Assembly (NCBI RefSeq): GCF_021811825.1
Contig: NZ_JAJBJC010000003.1
Location: forward strand, 1-37,393
DNA: 37,393 nucleotides
From: Candidatus Anadelfobacter sociabilis
GTDB taxonomy: Bacteria > Pseudomonadota > Alphaproteobacteria > Rickettsiales > Midichloriaceae
Reading direction: 5' to 3'
Below the pieces are notes generated by a model that worked only from the letters and a program-made list of their open reading frames with translations, made no database searches and was not told the DNA's origin. Of this stretch, positions 2,339-36,559 are shown in pieces (the first letter of the stretch is position 1; the number at the start of each line of letters is the position of its first letter). Both the position numbers and the translations under genes were made by a program.

Positions 2339-5300
2339 ATGTATAAATGTGGAGTAAGTATTTTTTTAAGTATCATAATATTGGTATTTTCTTGCAGCAT
2401 TTTTAGTTATGAAGTGAATGCCAAAGTTGATATAATCGACACTGCAGCAGTTATCAATAAAGCTAATATAGCCTATACAAAGATATTATTTTTTACACCA
2501 AATAATAGCCAAGATAACAACGATGTATCACAAATAACTTTGCAGTTTGATAAAAATTTATCAACTTTGATAGATGATACATCAAAAATACCTATAACAA
2601 TTTTCCCAAAATTAGATTGTAGTTGGTTTTGGGCAAATGACAATACCCTTGCTTGTAATACTATATCTAGCAGTTTAAAAGATGCTACACGATATACCTT
2701 AAAAATTAAAGGAGGGAAAAAAATTGAAGGCACAGATATAATTATAGATCGCGACTACACACATACATTTGTATACCATCCACTAAAAATATTAAATATA
2801 AATTTATTTGAGTGGGAAAAACCCAATCTACCAGTACTTTTGCTGACATTTAATCAGCCTGTAGAAAAACAATCTCTCATTGAGAATACGTTTTTTATCA
2901 AAAATAACAAAAGTAAAAAGATCATAGATAAAGTTAAAGCTATACTGTCTGTATATGAGTTAGTAGCTGAAGGAAATAAAAAAAATACAGTATGGAAAGT
3001 CAGACCTCAGTCACCATTAGAATATGATCAAGAATATAAACTGATCATAGAACCCAAAGTCACACCAATTACTGGTGATACAACGTTATTACCTCAAAAA
3101 TTTATAAGAGACAATGTTATCAAAACATATCCTAAGGTACCAAAAATTGTATCTATATCATGTATGAATCAAGAGTTTAAAAGAATGTACATCAAAGTTG
3201 GTGAAAAAATTGATACAAACAGTAGATGCGATACACAAAGTGGTGTAGAAGTCAATTTCAATACACCAATTAACTTAGATTTAGCAAAGTGTTTTTTGAA
3301 TATCTCTCCAACAATTAATAAAAAATTAACAACCGAATATTGCAAATTAATAACAAAAGATAGTGACATTGATTTTTCTACCAATACCGCTATCCGCAGT
3401 AGCGATAATAACAACAAAAACACTAAATATAGTACAAAATTTTTTATAACAGATCTAAAGCCTAATACGAGTTATACAATTTCCGCGCAGAGTATACAAT
3501 CACCTACTTTCATAGATAAAATTAGATCATTTTTTTGGCAAAAAGATATACAAAATTCCCAAATTAAAGACATATTTGATCGCAATATTAGTGCCAACGA
3601 ATCAGTACAATTTTTAACTTCACACCTTAGTCCAGAATGCGATGTAAAAAAATACACAATTCTAGAAAAGAACATTGATACAGATATGCAAGTTAATATG
3701 ATTAATATAGAGAAGCTTTCGTTATCTTATAATAAATTTTATTACAACGGCGCAGAACACAATCTATTAAATGAATATAATTTCAATAAAAAAGAAGATG
3801 AATTGCTAGCATTACCTTTAAAAATCAGAGATATACTAGGAGGAAAGAGTGGGCTTATTAGTGGATATTTACATACATTTCCAAAATCTGGGGGGGAAAA
3901 GGAATTTTCTGCACAAGTTACTCCGTTCAATATAGTTGCGAAAATTGGACATTTTAATTCATTAATTTGGATAACCGATTTAGGAACTGGAAGACCTGTT
4001 TCTGATGCGAATATTGAATTGACATGTGGCTCAATAAAGTACGATCCACTACAAAAAATACTTGCTGCATCTAAAACAGACCAAGATGGAGTCGCAATAT
4101 TCAAGCAAACAAAAAATTTGTATTGCGATAATAACTCATTAGAGTTTTGTTGTGATTTTTATAACCCGCAAGAAAAAAATAAACAATTCATGGTAATTGC
4201 AAAAAAAGATAAAGATATTGGAATACTGCCTTTATCAAGTAGCTTTAAATTTGGAGTAGGTCAATCATCTTCACATCAATTCTTAGCTAAAAACTCAGAG
4301 AGTGATGTTCTGTTTTTTGTAATCACCACACAAGAACTATATAAAGCCGGAGATTTGGTACAATACAAAATATATGCACGAAATTTAGATAAGAATGGTA
4401 TTACGAAATACCATTCTGCTATGAAGTACAAAATGATTGTTAGTGATACAGAACAAAAAGTCATACATACTGTGGATAATATTGCATTTTCAGAATTTGG
4501 CACATATGCAAATGAATTTATGTTAGAATCAAACGCAAAATCTGGTTTATATCACATCGAAATACAAGCATTTAAAGATAATGAAGTAGTATTTTCACAG
4601 AATATTGGCAACATATATGTTTCAGATTTTATACCATCTTCATTTAAAATTAATACAACTATACAAAAAGAATCATATAGCCTAGGAGATACTATAGAAA
4701 TCAAGACTGAAGCCAAATTTTATTCAGGAACACCATATATCGAAAAAGATGGAAAACTATTTGTAACACTTTCTCAAGCTGATCTATCAGCAATAATCAG
4801 AAATCCTACATTAAAAGATTTTCACTTTAATGATATTAAAGCGAATGATGGAGAACAATATACAAAAGAAAAATCTGAAATTTTATCTCAAGTCTACATA
4901 AAAACTGATCAAAACGGAATAGCGAAAAACAAAATAGAAATTCTACCAAATGAATTATATTATGGAAAAATAAGTGCAAAAAGCATAATATATGACGAAC
5001 GTGGAAGATCACATTCAAGCTCTGCTTCTAAACCGTATTTTGGAGTAGATAGATTTGTAGGATTACGCAAAAAACAGTGGGTATATAACATCAATCAAGC
5101 CATAGAAATTGAGGAAATTGTAATAGATACAACCGGTAATTTACTAGAAGGAGTAGATATTACATCAATACTAGAAAAAAAAGTATTAAAATTAAAAACT
5201 AAACACAATTCTCATAATATTGATGATACTCAATATACGATTGAATGGCATAAAATTGCTGATTTTCATAACAAATCGAGCATTGAACAAATTGAAAAAT

Positions 5301-8300
5301 GTGTTTTTGTAGCAAAGGAAGCTGGAGAATATCGTATTGTTGCCACTATAGAAGATTTAAAGGGACATGCACACAATAGTATTATTGATATTTTTATTAT
5401 TGGTAATGAAGAATATACACCCACAATACAAAAAGAGGAAAGTATTATTGAAATTATACAAAATAAACAACAGTATAACGTAGGAGAAATAGCACACTAC
5501 TTAGTGAAGGGGTTACACAAAAACACTACTGCATTGATAACTGTTGAAAGAAATGGAGTATTAGATAGTTTTGTACAAAAACTTACTCCCGATAAACCAA
5601 CAGTAGATATTTTAATAAAAGAGAATTATCTACCAAAATTCAATTTATCTATTACGACTTTTTCTCAGCGTACGGATAATACAGAAATACAAGATACTAT
5701 TGGAGCTGTATCTCAACGAAAGCTAGACGATGCCGCTAGACCAATTATTAAAATGGGATATGCACAATCTGAGATTGTTAATCCGGAAAAACATATAAAA
5801 CTTATCATTACTCCAGATAAAATAACATATAGACCACGTGAAAAATGTAAAATAATGATACAGAGTAGTAAAAAAGATATACAAGAACTCGCAGTAATAA
5901 TTTTTGATAGCAGTATTTATGAAATACTAAAAAGAGATTATAGTTCCTTCAATATAGATAAAATTATACAAAAAAATTATAACAATGTTTCAATAAGTAA
6001 TTTTAATTTGATAAATAACCTAAGAGGTAAGGAAAAGATTATTAAGTTTTCTGATACAATAAATACTGTAAATTCATCTAATAATGGAATTTACAATAAA
6101 ATTCAAAACCAATCTCAAGATACAATAGAATCTGGAATAAGAAATATAGATAGTAAATATGCTGCATATTGGGCTCCACAACTACTCACTGATAAAACTG
6201 GTAAAGCGCAGGTAGAATTTCTCATTCCTGATAACTTAACTGAATGGAAAGTAATTGTCATTGCAAATTCTCAAGAAAATGAGTTTGGTTCAAACATTGA
6301 AAAACTAAGTGTTGCAAGAGAATTAGAGTTACGCCCTATTGGGCCATCACATGCCTATAATGGTGATAAATTTTTAGCAGGATTTAGTATATTAAATAAT
6401 ACAGATGCTAAACATGACTTGGATTTTTCTATGTCAATTACTGGTGGAGTTGAAAAGGAAATAAATTATACAAAAAAATTTAAAGATGTTTTACCAAAAG
6501 CTAATATACTTTCTCTCACTAATATAAGCACTATACATAATAATCAAATACAGAACATATTAGAGAATCACGAGATCAACATCAATGGAAAAATTTCTAC
6601 CACAGATGGTAAGGAGAGTGATGCGCTAAAACATGTTATAAAAATTTATCCACTATATGATTTAGAAACTACTACAAAATTTGGTGTGATAAGAAATTCA
6701 AGCATCATAGGTGATATCAGTATTCCAAAAGAAGTGATTCCACAAATAAGTTCGATCACAATATCAGCTTCTCCAACGATAGTAGGAGATATTACTCCAA
6801 TAATAAGAAATACAATAGATTATCCTTATTCTTCGTGGGAGCAGAAAATCTCTAAGGCATTGATAGCATCTTATTATAAAAAGATTCTTGAAAAAGATTA
6901 TAAAGATATTTTGATGTGGTCAGAAGCAGAAGATTTAATCAAAAACACATTAGCTGAGATGATTAATTATCAAGCAGCAGATGGAGGTATGCACTATTAT
7001 AAAAATAGTAATATTACAGATAAATATCTTAGTGCATATACTATGATAGCTTTAATCTGCATTAAAGCTTTGGGATATAACGTTCCTGAAACTAGTATAA
7101 ATTCTCTTATAAAATATTTGCATAACATCGTACTTGATACAAAAGATATTTATAAAAACTCTCAATATCTCGACGATGCTATACCAATTGCACTATATGG
7201 ATTATCCACAAATAATGCATTAGATCGAAACGAATTACAATTCTATATTGACCATATACAAAATGCTAATCTTGCCAGTAAAGCTTATTATCTCAATGCT
7301 GCATATAAAATAGGAGATACTGAATCTATAAAAAAAATCATAAAATCAATATTGAGTCATAGTAATCAGACAACAACTGGTATATGGTTTACTGATACAA
7401 GCAATGTTGCAGCACAGTATACATTAAACTCAGAACTGCAAACAAATTGCCTGATTTTAGATATATTCACAAGAATTGGAGGAAGTGAAAACCTAGGATA
7501 TAAGGATTCGAGACTTTTGGTAAATAATATACCATCTAGATTAATGCACTCAATAAGAGATGAGTTGAATTCACAAAAATATGGTGGATATGGAAATACT
7601 CATGAAAATGCGATTTGTATATCTGCGATAGCTAATTATGTAAAAACATATGAAGCTGATGTTGCAAATGTCAGTATGGATATCAATATTTCCTCTGAAA
7701 AATATAAAATGAATTTCACCAAGAAGATTAGTGAAGTGAAGGTTGTTACATATAAAATAAGAGATAAAGACATCTCTGATAAAGTAAAAATAAAATTACG
7801 ACCAAGCAATAATGCTACTGCAGATAGTATATCACAAGTAAAAAGTAAAGAATTCGATTTGATTGAACAACAATTGTATTATACTATAAGATTGGATTAT
7901 ATAAGACAAAATCTAGCAAAAAAGTATAATAATTCTGGATTCGAAATACATAAAGAGTATAGTCTTTGGAAAGACGGTGGTTGGTTACTTCTCAATAATG
8001 CTAATGATGAACAGGAAGTTTTTCTGCATTTAAAAAAAGGCGATGTAGTAAGAGTGGATATTTATTTAATCACTCCCGCTCTTAGGCATTTTGTTGTAAT
8101 TGATGATAGCATCGCTGGTGCTTTTGAAATATTGGATACAAATTTAGATAGTATATACCACACTTATAAAGAAATTATTGACAGCTCTCCTCCAAAGAGT
8201 AATTTGCTTGTGCAATATAAAGATAATTGGCAAAACTGCAGTATGAAATCTTTAAGCTCCAATAATTGCGCTGTCCAAGATAGAGGATTTTCGTCTGTAC

Positions 8301-8494
8301 AAATTACAGATAGTGCAATTAGATTTTATTCACAAAAACTTAATAAAGGAAAGTATCATCTAAGTTATTTAACAGAAGTTGTATCAGAAGGAAGTTTCGT
8401 GGCATCACCAATAAAAGCAATTGAGATATATAATAAGAATGTGAGTGGATCTGGTGTATATAATAATATCGAAGTAAAGAAAGAAAACAGATAA
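2339..8494 (+). CDS. Large bacterial alpha-2-macroglobulin, thioester cysteine replaced
   Basis: Bacterial A2M proteins act in the periplasm or on the envelope as protease traps thought to protect the cell. This 2051-residue protein is longer than the usual 1600-1900. It starts with a signal peptide: hydrophobic residues 7-23, probable signal-peptidase I site after VNA (28); VFSC at 16-19 is a poor lipobox. A beta-rich macroglobulin-repeat body follows. The A2M domain begins at YWAPQLLTDKTG (from 1277), followed by PDNLTEWKVIVIANSQ. The thioester site, normally YGCLEQ or similar, reads YPYSSWEQ (1495-1502): Glu-Gln are kept but Cys is Ser1499, so no thioester bond can form. A helical toroid region and a C-terminal MG domain follow. 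E. coli pairs one A2M with pbpC; here PBP1a is about 19 kb away. A G7 tract lies at 3890-3896. Confidence 0.92.
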   Translation: MYKCGVSIFLSIIILVFSCSIFSYEVNAKVDIIDTAAVINKANIAYTKILFFTPNNSQDNNDVSQITLQFDKNLSTLIDDTSKIPITIFPKLDCSWFWANDNTLACNTISSSLKDATRYTLKIKGGKKIEGTDIIIDRDYTHTFVYHPLKILNINLFEWEKPNLPVLLLTFNQPVEKQSLIENTFFIKNNKSKKIIDKVKAILSVYELVAEGNKKNTVWKVRPQSPLEYDQEYKLIIEPKVTPITGDTTLLPQKFIRDNVIKTYPKVPKIVSISCMNQEFKRMYIKVGEKIDTNSRCDTQSGVEVNFNTPINLDLAKCFLNISPTINKKLTTEYCKLITKDSDIDFSTNTAIRSSDNNNKNTKYSTKFFITDLKPNTSYTISAQSIQSPTFIDKIRSFFWQKDIQNSQIKDIFDRNISANESVQFLTSHLSPECDVKKYTILEKNIDTDMQVNMINIEKLSLSYNKFYYNGAEHNLLNEYNFNKKEDELLALPLKIRDILGGKSGLISGYLHTFPKSGGEKEFSAQVTPFNIVAKIGHFNSLIWITDLGTGRPVSDANIELTCGSIKYDPLQKILAASKTDQDGVAIFKQTKNLYCDNNSLEFCCDFYNPQEKNKQFMVIAKKDKDIGILPLSSSFKFGVGQSSSHQFLAKNSESDVLFFVITTQELYKAGDLVQYKIYARNLDKNGITKYHSAMKYKMIVSDTEQKVIHTVDNIAFSEFGTYANEFMLESNAKSGLYHIEIQAFKDNEVVFSQNIGNIYVSDFIPSSFKINTTIQKESYSLGDTIEIKTEAKFYSGTPYIEKDGKLFVTLSQADLSAIIRNPTLKDFHFNDIKANDGEQYTKEKSEILSQVYIKTDQNGIAKNKIEILPNELYYGKISAKSIIYDERGRSHSSSASKPYFGVDRFVGLRKKQWVYNINQAIEIEEIVIDTTGNLLEGVDITSILEKKVLKLKTKHNSHNIDDTQYTIEWHKIADFHNKSSIEQIEKCVFVAKEAGEYRIVATIEDLKGHAHNSIIDIFIIGNEEYTPTIQKEESIIEIIQNKQQYNVGEIAHYLVKGLHKNTTALITVERNGVLDSFVQKLTPDKPTVDILIKENYLPKFNLSITTFSQRTDNTEIQDTIGAVSQRKLDDAARPIIKMGYAQSEIVNPEKHIKLIITPDKITYRPREKCKIMIQSSKKDIQELAVIIFDSSIYEILKRDYSSFNIDKIIQKNYNNVSISNFNLINNLRGKEKIIKFSDTINTVNSSNNGIYNKIQNQSQDTIESGIRNIDSKYAAYWAPQLLTDKTGKAQVEFLIPDNLTEWKVIVIANSQENEFGSNIEKLSVARELELRPIGPSHAYNGDKFLAGFSILNNTDAKHDLDFSMSITGGVEKEINYTKKFKDVLPKANILSLTNISTIHNNQIQNILENHEININGKISTTDGKESDALKHVIKIYPLYDLETTTKFGVIRNSSIIGDISIPKEVIPQISSITISASPTIVGDITPIIRNTIDYPYSSWEQKISKALIASYYKKILEKDYKDILMWSEAEDLIKNTLAEMINYQAADGGMHYYKNSNITDKYLSAYTMIALICIKALGYNVPETSINSLIKYLHNIVLDTKDIYKNSQYLDDAIPIALYGLSTNNALDRNELQFYIDHIQNANLASKAYYLNAAYKIGDTESIKKIIKSILSHSNQTTTGIWFTDTSNVAAQYTLNSELQTNCLILDIFTRIGGSENLGYKDSRLLVNNIPSRLMHSIRDELNSQKYGGYGNTHENAICISAIANYVKTYEADVANVSMDINISSEKYKMNFTKKISEVKVVTYKIRDKDISDKVKIKLRPSNNATADSISQVKSKEFDLIEQQLYYTIRLDYIRQNLAKKYNNSGFEIHKEYSLWKDGGWLLLNNANDEQEVFLHLKKGDVVRVDIYLITPALRHFVVIDDSIAGAFEILDTNLDSIYHTYKEIIDSSPPKSNLLVQYKDNWQNCSMKSLSSNNCAVQDRGFSSVQITDSAIRFYSQKLNKGKYHLSYLTEVVSEGSFVASPIKAIEIYNKNVSGSGVYNNIEVKKENR

Positions 8495-19659: not shown

Positions 19660-20409
19660 TTAATATTTAACATATTTATTTACATTTTTTAAAACTATAT
19701 CAAATTTATATATCACTACATCACGTTCTGGCAAAATTTTCTTATCTACTGTATATTTTTTTGCAATTAACAACTTTCTAACATCGATATTTTTAAAATA
19801 TTTCATCATAAATTTATCTTTTTCCAATATACTATCTTCTGGAAAATACATTTGAGTAATAAATTCATTAAAATCTTGATGTCTTATAGCAAAATTAATG
19901 TGGGGTAATCTATATTGCGAATCTGTTCCTGGAACAATTGTGTATATCTTATATTGTCCTAAATTATTTGTTATTGCAGTACCAGAGCCAACAAAATTTT
20001 TATCAGCATTTTTCATAGATTCCATGCTTAGTGTGAGATTTGATTCTGGTATATCATCATAATAATTACTATCATAGCCATTTGCATCAAGCTGCCATAT
20101 CTCTACCACTGCATTTGGAACTGGGACACAATTTTTGTCTAATATTCGACCTTCAATTATTATGTAAGTACCATTGGCGAAATCAGCACTTCCAACATAA
20201 CGCCACAAATTATTACCCATATATATATTTGGTTGTCTCTTTTTATCCCAAACCATGGGAGTCTCTCTACAATCAACACTAATGGATATTCTGTTTTCAG
20301 AATATCCATAACATGGAGAATGATCTGATATAAAAAAACAAGTTATGGTAATTAATAAAATTATACAAAATTTTATACAAAATTTGAGATTGTAATTTAT
20401 ATCGAACAT
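19660..20409 (-). CDS. Exported intradiol-dioxygenase-like protein (PcaH-like), iron ligand changed
   Basis: Resembles the beta subunit of protocatechuate 3,4-dioxygenase, a family with small single-gene homologues in Rickettsiales. From the ATG at 20409 (249 residues) a hydrophobic segment (about 13-27, FCIKFCIILLITITCFF) points to export or membrane anchoring. The core is present: GRILDKNCVPVPNAVVEIWQ (87-106), DANGYDSNYYDD (108-119), GSGTAITNNLGQYKIYTIVPG, then YRLPHINFAI. Classical enzymes bind Fe(III) with two Tyr and the His pair of HIHF. Here the pair is His170 and Asn172 (HINF), so the site lacks one ligand. Aromatic-ring cleavage is therefore doubtful; a structural or altered role is possible. 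The partner PcaG is not nearby. The frame is open to a TTG at 20448, but the ATG is preferred. Confidence 0.8.
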   Translation of the reverse strand: MFDINYNLKFCIKFCIILLITITCFFISDHSPCYGYSENRISISVDCRETPMVWDKKRQPNIYMGNNLWRYVGSADFANGTYIIIEGRILDKNCVPVPNAVVEIWQLDANGYDSNYYDDIPESNLTLSMESMKNADKNFVGSGTAITNNLGQYKIYTIVPGTDSQYRLPHINFAIRHQDFNEFITQMYFPEDSILEKDKFMMKYFKNIDVRKLLIAKKYTVDKKILPERDVVIYKFDIVLKNVNKYVKY

Positions 20410-20553
20410 ATAAAAAAATAAAATGTATGCATATACTTGTTTAATCAATCTTACTACATCAATAACGCGCGTTACTAGACTAAATAGTAATGGTAAATGA
20501 AAAATTATATTGTTGCAATATTAAGAAATTGAAAGTGACAGAATTAATTATAT

Positions 20554-33294: not shown

Positions 33295-33864
33295 GATTGT
33301 CGTATTTTTTATTATTTGTTGTGTAATGATTGAATTACGAATTTAAATTATGATTTATGTATTGTTTTATAATACGAACAGAAGGATATGACAATCTCAG
33401 TAATAATATTTTATTTTTTTGCTTATCACTTTAGATAAAAGGGTTGAGGATATGGATAGCTTTGTTGAGTGTGGATTGATACACATATTACCTAATGACT
33501 CAAAAGAATGAGTAACATATGCTGGTTTGTAGAGATATCAAATTGAATTACTTATTACTATGAGATTGAAAATTCTAAATAGTAATCATCTAGATTGTGA
33601 GTGGTTATGATAATAATATAGTTTGATGTAAATATTCTCTCTTACAAGTGAGGGGGTATTTTTTGAATTTTCTGCATAGTGTATTATTTATAAAGATGTC
33701 TTAAGATAATGGCGTTGATAATAGCATTAAATACAATCTTCTAATGGGATGATATTAATTAGAAGAGAAATTGAGGATATCATTTATGAAAAACCGAAAA
33801 AGTCAGGTGTAGTGCTATTTTTATCTACAACTACTACACCATTCTAGCATAACAAGATTCAATC
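33295..33864. other. Non-coding gap between adk and mnmG
   Basis: 570 bp with no supported gene. The motif GTGAGGGGG near 33648 is shared with the left edge of the IS5-family remnant near 24258 and may mark an old IS end. The left edge holds the putative adk terminator. No conserved RNA seen. Confidence 0.4.
33795..33840 (-). terminator. Putative intrinsic terminator of the adenylate kinase gene
   Basis: GGTGTAGT (33806-33813) pairs exactly with ACTACACC (33833-33840). Read on the minus strand, the hairpin starts 25 bases after the adk stop and is followed by TGACTTTTTCGGTTTTT. Stem quality and the T-rich tail make this the best terminator candidate in the window; the loop (19 bases) is long. 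Confidence 0.5.
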
Positions 33865-34779
33865 TTAGTTTACCGCCTTCTGAGATTTTTTATCTCTAAT
33901 TTTTTCTATAGATTCCAATACAATACTATGAATTTTTTCAATACCAAGAGTGGATGTATTAACAAAAATTATATTATCGTGTGTATTGTTTCGATAAAAT
34001 TTAATGACGGGTTTAGTCTGTTTTTTGTAGATTTTAATACGTTTGTGTAATGTCTCAACAGAATCGTCGGCTCTGACTTCTTCTTTGCCAGTGCAGCCTT
34101 TAATGCTAATCTCGTTATCATTCAATTTTATTTTACCTAAATTATGATTAGCACAATCTATGCGATTTTTTAATCTATCTAATATTACCTTTTCTTTTGC
34201 ATTTAAAACAATAATTATAGGTTTTGCATTAGCATTTTCTTTTGACAATATATTCTCCAATGCTTGCGCTTGTCCTATAGTTCTTGGGTATCCGTCTAAA
34301 ATAAACCCATAACGACAGTCCTCTTCTTTAATACGATGTTCAACTAATTGATTTACTATTTCTTCATTAACAAGCTTTCCACTTTTTACTGTCATAGATA
34401 ATTTCTTCTCTACTGAATTTTCTTTAGAATCGGTAGTTGCTTTTTTTAAGCTATCTCTTATAAGTTGCCCCGTAGATATTTGTGGTATCCCGTATTCTTT
34501 CTCTATAAACCTAGCTACTGTACCTTTACCAGAAGCGGGAGGACCCATTAATACCAGTATTAGTTTTTCATTATCTTTTATAGGTTTTTGTTTAAGTAGA
34601 TGAGAATTTTCTGTCTTATTATTGTTTATAGTAGAATATGGATCTTGTGCATGTGCAATACCATGACTTAACATATAATGTGCTATCAAAATCACTCCAG
34701 CAGAAATATATACCCCGTAGGAATATATCTTGTTTTGTACAATACTTCCAATTTTTACTCGATTTAGAGATGTAAACAT
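33865..34779 (-). CDS. Adenylate kinase with an N-terminal signal peptide (probably exported)
   Basis: Adenylate kinase (ATP + AMP to 2 ADP). Start: the ATG at 34779 has AAGGA seven bases upstream, better than the ATG at 34794 or a TTG at 34812. The 304-residue protein has about 70 residues before the kinase core. They form a signal peptide: Lys/Arg-containing N-region, hydrophobic stretch (about 22-40, YGVYISAGVILIAHYMLSHG), then AHA followed by Gln-Asp, a good signal-peptidase I site after residue 44. A polar linker follows. The core is intact: P-loop GPPASGKGT (79-87), QISTGQLIRDSL (Asp of STGD is Gln), ILDGYPRTIGQAQAL, and RADD, HKR and QT in the LID/core. The LID keeps two Cys about 20 residues apart, not a zinc-finger set. 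Cytoplasmic Adk normally starts at the P-loop, so this may be a second, periplasmic paralogue. Confidence 0.9.
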   Translation of the reverse strand: MFTSLNRVKIGSIVQNKIYSYGVYISAGVILIAHYMLSHGIAHAQDPYSTINNNKTENSHLLKQKPIKDNEKLILVLMGPPASGKGTVARFIEKEYGIPQISTGQLIRDSLKKATTDSKENSVEKKLSMTVKSGKLVNEEIVNQLVEHRIKEEDCRYGFILDGYPRTIGQAQALENILSKENANAKPIIIVLNAKEKVILDRLKNRIDCANHNLGKIKLNDNEISIKGCTGKEEVRADDSVETLHKRIKIYKKQTKPVIKFYRNNTHDNIIFVNTSTLGIEKIHSIVLESIEKIRDKKSQKAVN

Positions 34780-35239: not shown

Positions 35240-36559
35240 TTATGTTAATGCTCCTATCAGGCTAGCACACATGCAATTCGAAAATGTTCCAGCTAATACT
35301 GCCTTTGATCCAAGAACAATTACTTCACTACGTCTTTCTGGAATTACAACGCTATATATTCCTATTATTATCCCTATACTACCAAGATTCGCAAATCCAC
35401 ATAAAGCGTATAACACTATTAATCTTGAGTGTTCTGATAGTTGTGAGCCCATTTCGGCGAATTTAGTAAATGCTACTAACTCATTGGTGATTATCTTTGT
35501 TCCAATTAATCCACCAGCTAATTGAGCTTCTTCCCAAGGAATGCCTAACAAAAACATCAAAGGTGATATCAGAATTCCAAGTACCCTTTGTAAACTAATT
35601 GTTTCACCGTTATTAAATGGAATCAAATTTAAAATATTTTTTGGTATACAGCCCAAAATTTGGTCTACTATATCTATAAGCGCTATAAATCCTATAATCA
35701 TTATTATTATCATGATTACTACTTTTGCGCCATCAACTATACCACTAGAGATAGCGTCTAATGCGCTTTGTGTATGAGATAGTTCCATGTCGTTTGCTTC
35801 TGTTAGGTGCGCTCCAGATTTTGGTGGAATGATTATCATCGAAAGGGCTAAAGCAAGTGGAATATTAATTATTGCAGCGGTTATGATGTGACCTATAACG
35901 TTTGGTAATAATGATCCTACTATTATACTGTATATTACAAGCACAGAGCCTGCTGTACCTGCTGTACCACAAACCATAAGACTAAAAAGTTCGCTGCGAG
36001 AGAATTTACTGAGATACGGTTTTACAACTAATGGAGTTTCGCTCAGACCAGTAAATAGATTAGCAGAGACAGCAATACCTAGAGTACCGCCTATACGTAA
36101 GGCTTTATGAAAGAAAAATGAGAAAATATTGATAATAAACGGCAAGATTTTTAAGTAAGTAAGAAGATAGCTTATAGCTGAAATAACTATAATCATCGGA
36201 AGTCCTTGTGTGGCTAGTATAAAACCCAAGCCAGAATTTTGTGGTGGATTTGCAAGGCCACCAAAACATACAGCAACCGCTTTCGTAGTAGCTGTCCCCA
36301 CCGATTGCAAAGCACTATTAATACTACTAAATGCATCAACCACAGAAGGTATCTTTAATAAGCATATTGCTAGCACTATCTGCAATATAATGCACCTTAT
36401 AATATTTGAGTACTTTATATCAGATCTTTTTTCGCTTAAAATCCAAGCAACAAAAAAAAACACTAATCCTGATACAAACGGATATAAGAATCGAAATAAA
36501 TGTATGTTACTCATTGACAAATACAACATATAGATGTGAAGAACGCAAATCTCGTTCAT
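35240..36559 (-). CDS. nupC: NupC/CNT-family nucleoside transporter
   Basis: Concentrative nucleoside transporter that imports nucleosides with H+ or Na+. The 439 residues are strongly hydrophobic, with about ten membrane segments. CNT marks are AVCFGGLANPPQNSGLGFILATQGLPMIIVISA, the helix-hairpin region NLFTGLSETPLVVKPYLSKFSRSELFSLMVCGTAGTAGSVL (with the substrate-binding G-x-x-E-x-P), and the second repeat with LLGIPWEEAQLAGGLIGTKIITNELVAF and YALCGFANLGSIGI. The ATG at 36559 is open, but family alignment suggests the ATG at 36514 (MSNIHLF); neither has a ribosome site. It lies upstream of the exported adenylate kinase on the same strand, 460 bp apart, which suggests, but does not prove, a shared role in nucleotide scavenging. 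Confidence 0.92.
   Translation of the reverse strand: MNEICVLHIYMLYLSMSNIHLFRFLYPFVSGLVFFFVAWILSEKRSDIKYSNIIRCIILQIVLAICLLKIPSVVDAFSSINSALQSVGTATTKAVAVCFGGLANPPQNSGLGFILATQGLPMIIVISAISYLLTYLKILPFIINIFSFFFHKALRIGGTLGIAVSANLFTGLSETPLVVKPYLSKFSRSELFSLMVCGTAGTAGSVLVIYSIIVGSLLPNVIGHIITAAIINIPLALALSMIIIPPKSGAHLTEANDMELSHTQSALDAISSGIVDGAKVVIMIIIMIIGFIALIDIVDQILGCIPKNILNLIPFNNGETISLQRVLGILISPLMFLLGIPWEEAQLAGGLIGTKIITNELVAFTKFAEMGSQLSEHSRLIVLYALCGFANLGSIGIIIGIYSVVIPERRSEVIVLGSKAVLAGTFSNCMCASLIGALT

Follow-up and report, generated by a model that had tools for sequence, protein, structure and literature searches.

Adenylate kinase (Adk) is ordinarily a cytoplasmic and essential enzyme, and this locus raises the question of why a host-dependent bacterium would encode one that begins with an apparent export signal. 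The gene lies in a 37,393-nucleotide stretch of the Candidatus Anadelfobacter sociabilis genome (contig NZ_JAJBJC010000003.1; hereafter the window). The original prediction, made from sequence alone, described an intact adenylate kinase core preceded by about 70 extra residues resembling a signal peptide and linker, with a start fixed by a Shine-Dalgarno sequence, and suggested an enzyme acting at the envelope, for instance beside ATP/ADP translocases, or on host nucleotides. We find that the described gene is as stated. We first examined the gene itself, then the rest of the genome and 263 genomes of the order Rickettsiales. The features of the locus are as follows.

33865-34779, minus strand: second adenylate kinase gene with an N-terminal export signal (predicted), 304 aa
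34786-34791, minus strand: Shine-Dalgarno sequence AAGGAT, 6 bases before ATG 34779
34648-34779, minus strand: signal-peptide-like segment, residues 1-44, predicted cleavage AHA/QD
34567-34647, minus strand: polar linker, residues 45-71
33868-34566, minus strand: adenylate kinase core, all catalytic residues kept, LID short with two Cys
34519-34545, minus strand: P-loop GPPASGKGT
35240-36559, minus strand: NupC-type concentrative nucleoside transporter gene directly upstream, same strand, 460-base gap

An adenylate kinase with an N-terminal extension

From residue 72 on, the protein is an adenylate kinase. Profile scores are 147.2 bits for PF00406 (cut-off 26.8) and 175.6 bits for TIGR01351 (cut-off 168), starting at residue 75 of the 304-aa form, and E. 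coli Adk (1ake) is among the best PDB sequence hits (E 1.6e-32). K13, R36, D84, R88, Q92, R123, R156, D158, D159, and R167 (E. coli numbering) are all present. The LID is short, contains two cysteines, and gives no match to the standard LID profile (PF05191, ADK_lid), which is not required for the family since short-LID enzymes exist. A structure predicted from this sequence alone had a pLDDT of only 31, but a model built from three sequences has a confident core outside the LID (pLDDT mostly 75-89). A Foldseek search with this model matched Adk structures at E 1.8e-15, with 32% identity in the fold match to 1ake. Enzyme activity was not assayed.

Residues 1-44 read MFTSLNRVKIGSIVQNKIYSYGVYISAGVILIAHYMLSHGIAHA, so that the predicted cleavage site falls within IAHA/QDPYS. 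The charge is +3 before the hydrophobic core and -1 after it, and the most hydrophobic 13-mer starts at residue 21 (mean Kyte-Doolittle 1.93). This n-, h-, and c-region anatomy with an AXA site is that of a Sec-exported protein, although it rests on our own hydropathy and charge scoring rather than on SignalP, and export was not measured. The hydrophobic region is also the weakest of the six exported copies described below, thus cleavage rather than retention as an uncleaved anchor is not certain. There is no lipobox within the first 25 residues. In the model, residues 1-67 are of low confidence, with a separate helix at residues 11-38 and no secondary structure in the linker.

The only in-frame starts between ATG 34779 and the P-loop are GTG29, TTG31, and ATG36, none with a well-placed Shine-Dalgarno sequence, and ATG78, which lies at the end of strand beta-1. 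A cytoplasmic form starting just before the core is therefore not available from a standard start. The chance of 71 codons remaining open at this base composition is about 0.003. Of 47 canonical copies looked at, none carries such a segment as part of its own coding sequence; one has a hydrophobic in-frame stretch, but upstream of its own start Met. We found no close relative in which the extension could be aligned. Searching genome contigs with this protein returned only an ordinary adk beside secY in an Aminicenantes bin, and a scan of viral contigs found one ordinary Adk. A promoter scan found fewer sites than shuffled sequences and is uninformative.

A canonical copy in the same genome

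The absence of any other adk, together with homologues starting at the P-loop and no conservation of the extension, had been put forward as grounds for rejecting the export reading, and this is not what we observe. The genome (G000; 1.89 Mb in 817 contigs, 85.5% complete) has a second adk with a normal four-Cys LID and no extension on contig C70. It lies between murC and rpe, and not near secY as the original prediction expected; secY (contig C43) is followed by secF. The window contig is native to this organism: MnmG, encoded next door, is closest to members of the same family (54% to genome G005), one insertion sequence is 90.8% identical on contigs C131 and C70, and G+C contents are 30.6 and 30.9%. 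An intergenic stretch of the window (33431-33585) is 72% identical to one on C70 (10096-10257), a possible dispersed repeat.

Copies with export-type N-termini recur in three families

Of 263 genomes of the order, 250 have an ADK match and a dozen have two. After reading the loci, we recognize six genomes with a canonical adk plus a second copy with an export-type N-terminus: the window genome, G005 (MIKRISAIICITLLLVAC; lipobox LVAC, within LLLVAC), G018 (MKKFLVAVLLSVVTLLSSC; LSSC, within LLSSC), G145 (MTKYFTLFLLFVSLVSC; LVSC, within SLVSC), G172 (MKIIFIIFTLFFADFALA, ending FALA and followed by GD), and G238 (MILLDIAKFKLIAFTCLCAMFCTISEA, ending ISEA and followed by KN). Thus, three copies have lipoboxes and three have Sec-type signals. 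The charge is positive before the hydrophobic core and zero or negative after it in all but G145, which is +1 on both sides. G018, G145, and G238 are near-closed assemblies of 1-2 contigs. The six fall in three families, f1, f15, and f11, which we infer to be Midichloriaceae, Deianiraeaceae, and Rickettsiaceae, respectively, from Tlc copy numbers that match those in PMC10847448 (five in classical Rickettsiaceae, two in the Jidaibacter lineage, and one acquisition in Deianiraeaceae).

Other candidates were excluded. Long open frames before adk in G086, G153, G130, and G023 are upstream read-through without a signal, and the double matches in G019, G122, G131, and G150 look like one gene split or cut at contig ends. 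In genus g67 of f15 (G091 and G162; loci L070, L074, L080, and L081), the canonical-type adk itself has an N-terminal membrane segment. A second, LID-less NMP kinase there has one too, with Q92 changed to N, the residue of UMP/CMP kinases. G162 has no start codon just before the core of its canonical-type copy. The topology of these copies is doubtful and they were not counted as exported. The canonical adk of G005 (locus L034, 2030-2869) has a long insertion of about 50 residues before the LID.

In the maximum-likelihood tree the exported copy of G018 joins its own canonical gene (100/100), with which it shares a LID insertion, indicating a local duplicate. The exported copies of G145 and G172 form one clade (100/99) apart from their canonical genes, and as both genes directly follow rpoC they are taken as orthologous. 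A single origin of all six is rejected (p-AU 0.0137), although the branches are long and the group was not named before the tree was seen. We conclude that there was more than one origin, without an exact number being resolved.

Mutual identity among the six is only 23-36%, yet Lys13, Arg36, Asp84, Arg88, Gln92, Arg119, Arg123, Arg156, Asp159, and Arg167 are present in all. Position 10 (G to A), position 15 (T to Y), and positions 31 and 158 vary in some. This pattern fits enzymes kept active. Gln92 contacts the adenine of AMP in E. coli Adk, which argues for AMP as substrate.

Genomic context

All six genomes carry a Tlc ATP/ADP translocase, compared to 97 of 263 in the order (hypergeometric p 0.002), and five of the six have exactly one copy (p 0.009). 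Tlc presence follows phylogeny, so these values, which ignore shared ancestry, overstate the evidence. By our count 91 of the 97 Tlc-bearing genomes have no exported copy, so the enzyme is not needed for Tlc use, and the exported adk is not beside tlc in any locus read. Castelli and colleagues report that tlc was gained up to ten times in Rickettsiales and tracks the loss of nucleotide synthesis (PMC10847448); that paper does not mention adenylate kinase.

The gene upstream of the window copy encodes a NupC-type nucleoside transporter (PF07662 and PF01773; the TIGR00804 hit is below its cut-off). NupC occurs intact in 10 family members, including all three with exported Adk, but not in the f15 or f11 genomes searched, and is absent from G145, G172, and G238. 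A 485-aa metallophosphatase/5'-nucleotidase with a signal-like N-terminus is encoded on contig C36 (locus L097, 1330-2787, minus strand). It is rare in the family and was found in only three of 53 genomes (G000, G002, and G012), and only in the window genome among the six. We therefore dropped the idea that these two genes are a general part of the system.

A possible partner of the Tlc translocase

We propose that the Sec machinery moves this second adenylate kinase across the inner membrane, so that it works in the periplasm, free or anchored, interconverting 2 ADP and ATP + AMP next to Tlc. In this view, ADP expelled by Tlc in exchange for host ATP would be turned partly back into importable ATP plus AMP, which would remove a competing substrate and draw on the second high-energy phosphate of host ATP. 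Our data establish the signal-like segment, the intact catalytic residues, a separate canonical adk, recurrence in six genomes, and a tlc gene in all six, while actual export, activity in the periplasm, coupling to Tlc, and the direction of flux are inferred. We consider export likely and the role beside Tlc tentative; the explanation as a whole is about as likely as not. The original interpretation of an exported enzyme at the envelope is thus supported, including the presence of a translocase, whereas action on host nucleotides beyond the envelope is less favored because three of the six copies have lipoboxes.

The proposed arrangement resembles that of mitochondrial AK2. AK2 resides in the intermembrane space, where adenine nucleotide dynamics matter for oxidative phosphorylation (PMC3934953). 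It works there beside the ADP/ATP carrier. Both enzymes catalyze the same reaction, the predicted location between outer and inner membrane is comparable, and human AK2 (9fl7_D) is among the fold matches. However, AK2 has no Sec signal, and Tlc imports ATP while mitochondria export it, so the net flux would be reversed. We claim a functional analogy only, and orthology to AK2 was not examined. If correct, which we regard as possible but far from assured, energy-parasitic Rickettsiales have several times evolved a bacterial counterpart of AK2 that lets them use both high-energy phosphates of host ATP. Energy parasitism would then include enzymes on the outer side of the transporter, and whether external adenylate kinase raises the ATP yield of Tlc becomes a concrete, testable question.

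Compared to ordinary bacterial Adk, with which it shares the fold, P-loop, catalytic arginines, DD motif, and AMP-binding Gln, the window protein differs in its signal-like N-terminus and linker, its shortened two-Cys LID, and its status as a second copy. UshA-type periplasmic 5'-nucleotidases are also exported enzymes acting on nucleotides, but are hydrolases of unrelated fold. Adk activity is reported outside Pseudomonas and Vibrio cells, reportedly from the ordinary enzyme without a signal peptide rather than a dedicated second gene. Literature searches for secreted, periplasmic, or exported adenylate kinase, and for adenylate kinase in Rickettsiales, found no report of such an enzyme or of this extracellular Adk, in a collection that left out most subscription journals. 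The enzyme is familiar, whereas a recurrent, dedicated copy with an export signal appears to be new.

Alternative explanations

The best surviving alternative, although unlikely, is a salvage enzyme. Periplasmic Adk, 5'-nucleotidase, and NupC could form a chain that breaks host ADP down to AMP and then adenosine, which is imported as a purine source, with Tlc incidental. The adjacent NupC-type gene, the signal-bearing nucleotidase, and intact NupC in all three family members with exported Adk favor this. The restricted distribution of both genes argues against it, and Adk is not needed to make AMP where a nucleotidase can act on ADP. Such a branch may operate alongside Tlc in this genome, with AMP dephosphorylated and the adenosine taken up by the neighboring carrier, but it would be local and not general.

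Less likely is an uncleaved N-terminal anchor holding the kinase at the membrane with its catalytic domain in the cytoplasm. In G091 and G162 the N-terminal segments are followed by many Lys, suggesting a cytoplasmic domain, but in the window copy the charge distribution is that of an exported domain and an AHA/QD site follows. A released effector that alters host or vacuolar ATP/ADP/AMP, for example in signaling or energy sensing, is similarly doubtful. Three of the six copies, including this one, have Sec-type signals without a lipobox, and extracellular Adk release is reported for some pathogens. However, the lipoboxes of the other three imply membrane attachment, and no outer-membrane export motif was seen. 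A wrongly called start or assembly artefact, despite the lack of an alignable close relative, is very unlikely given the Shine-Dalgarno sequence, the absence of an in-frame start just before strand beta-1, the improbable open stretch, and the same anatomy in five other genomes.

Two further window genes have signal-like N-termini. One, at 19660-20448 (minus strand), encodes an intradiol-dioxygenase-domain protein (PF00775) whose N-terminus is hydrophobic, and is thus another usually cytoplasmic enzyme that may be exported. The other, at 2339-8494 (plus strand), encodes a 2051-residue bacterial alpha-2-macroglobulin.
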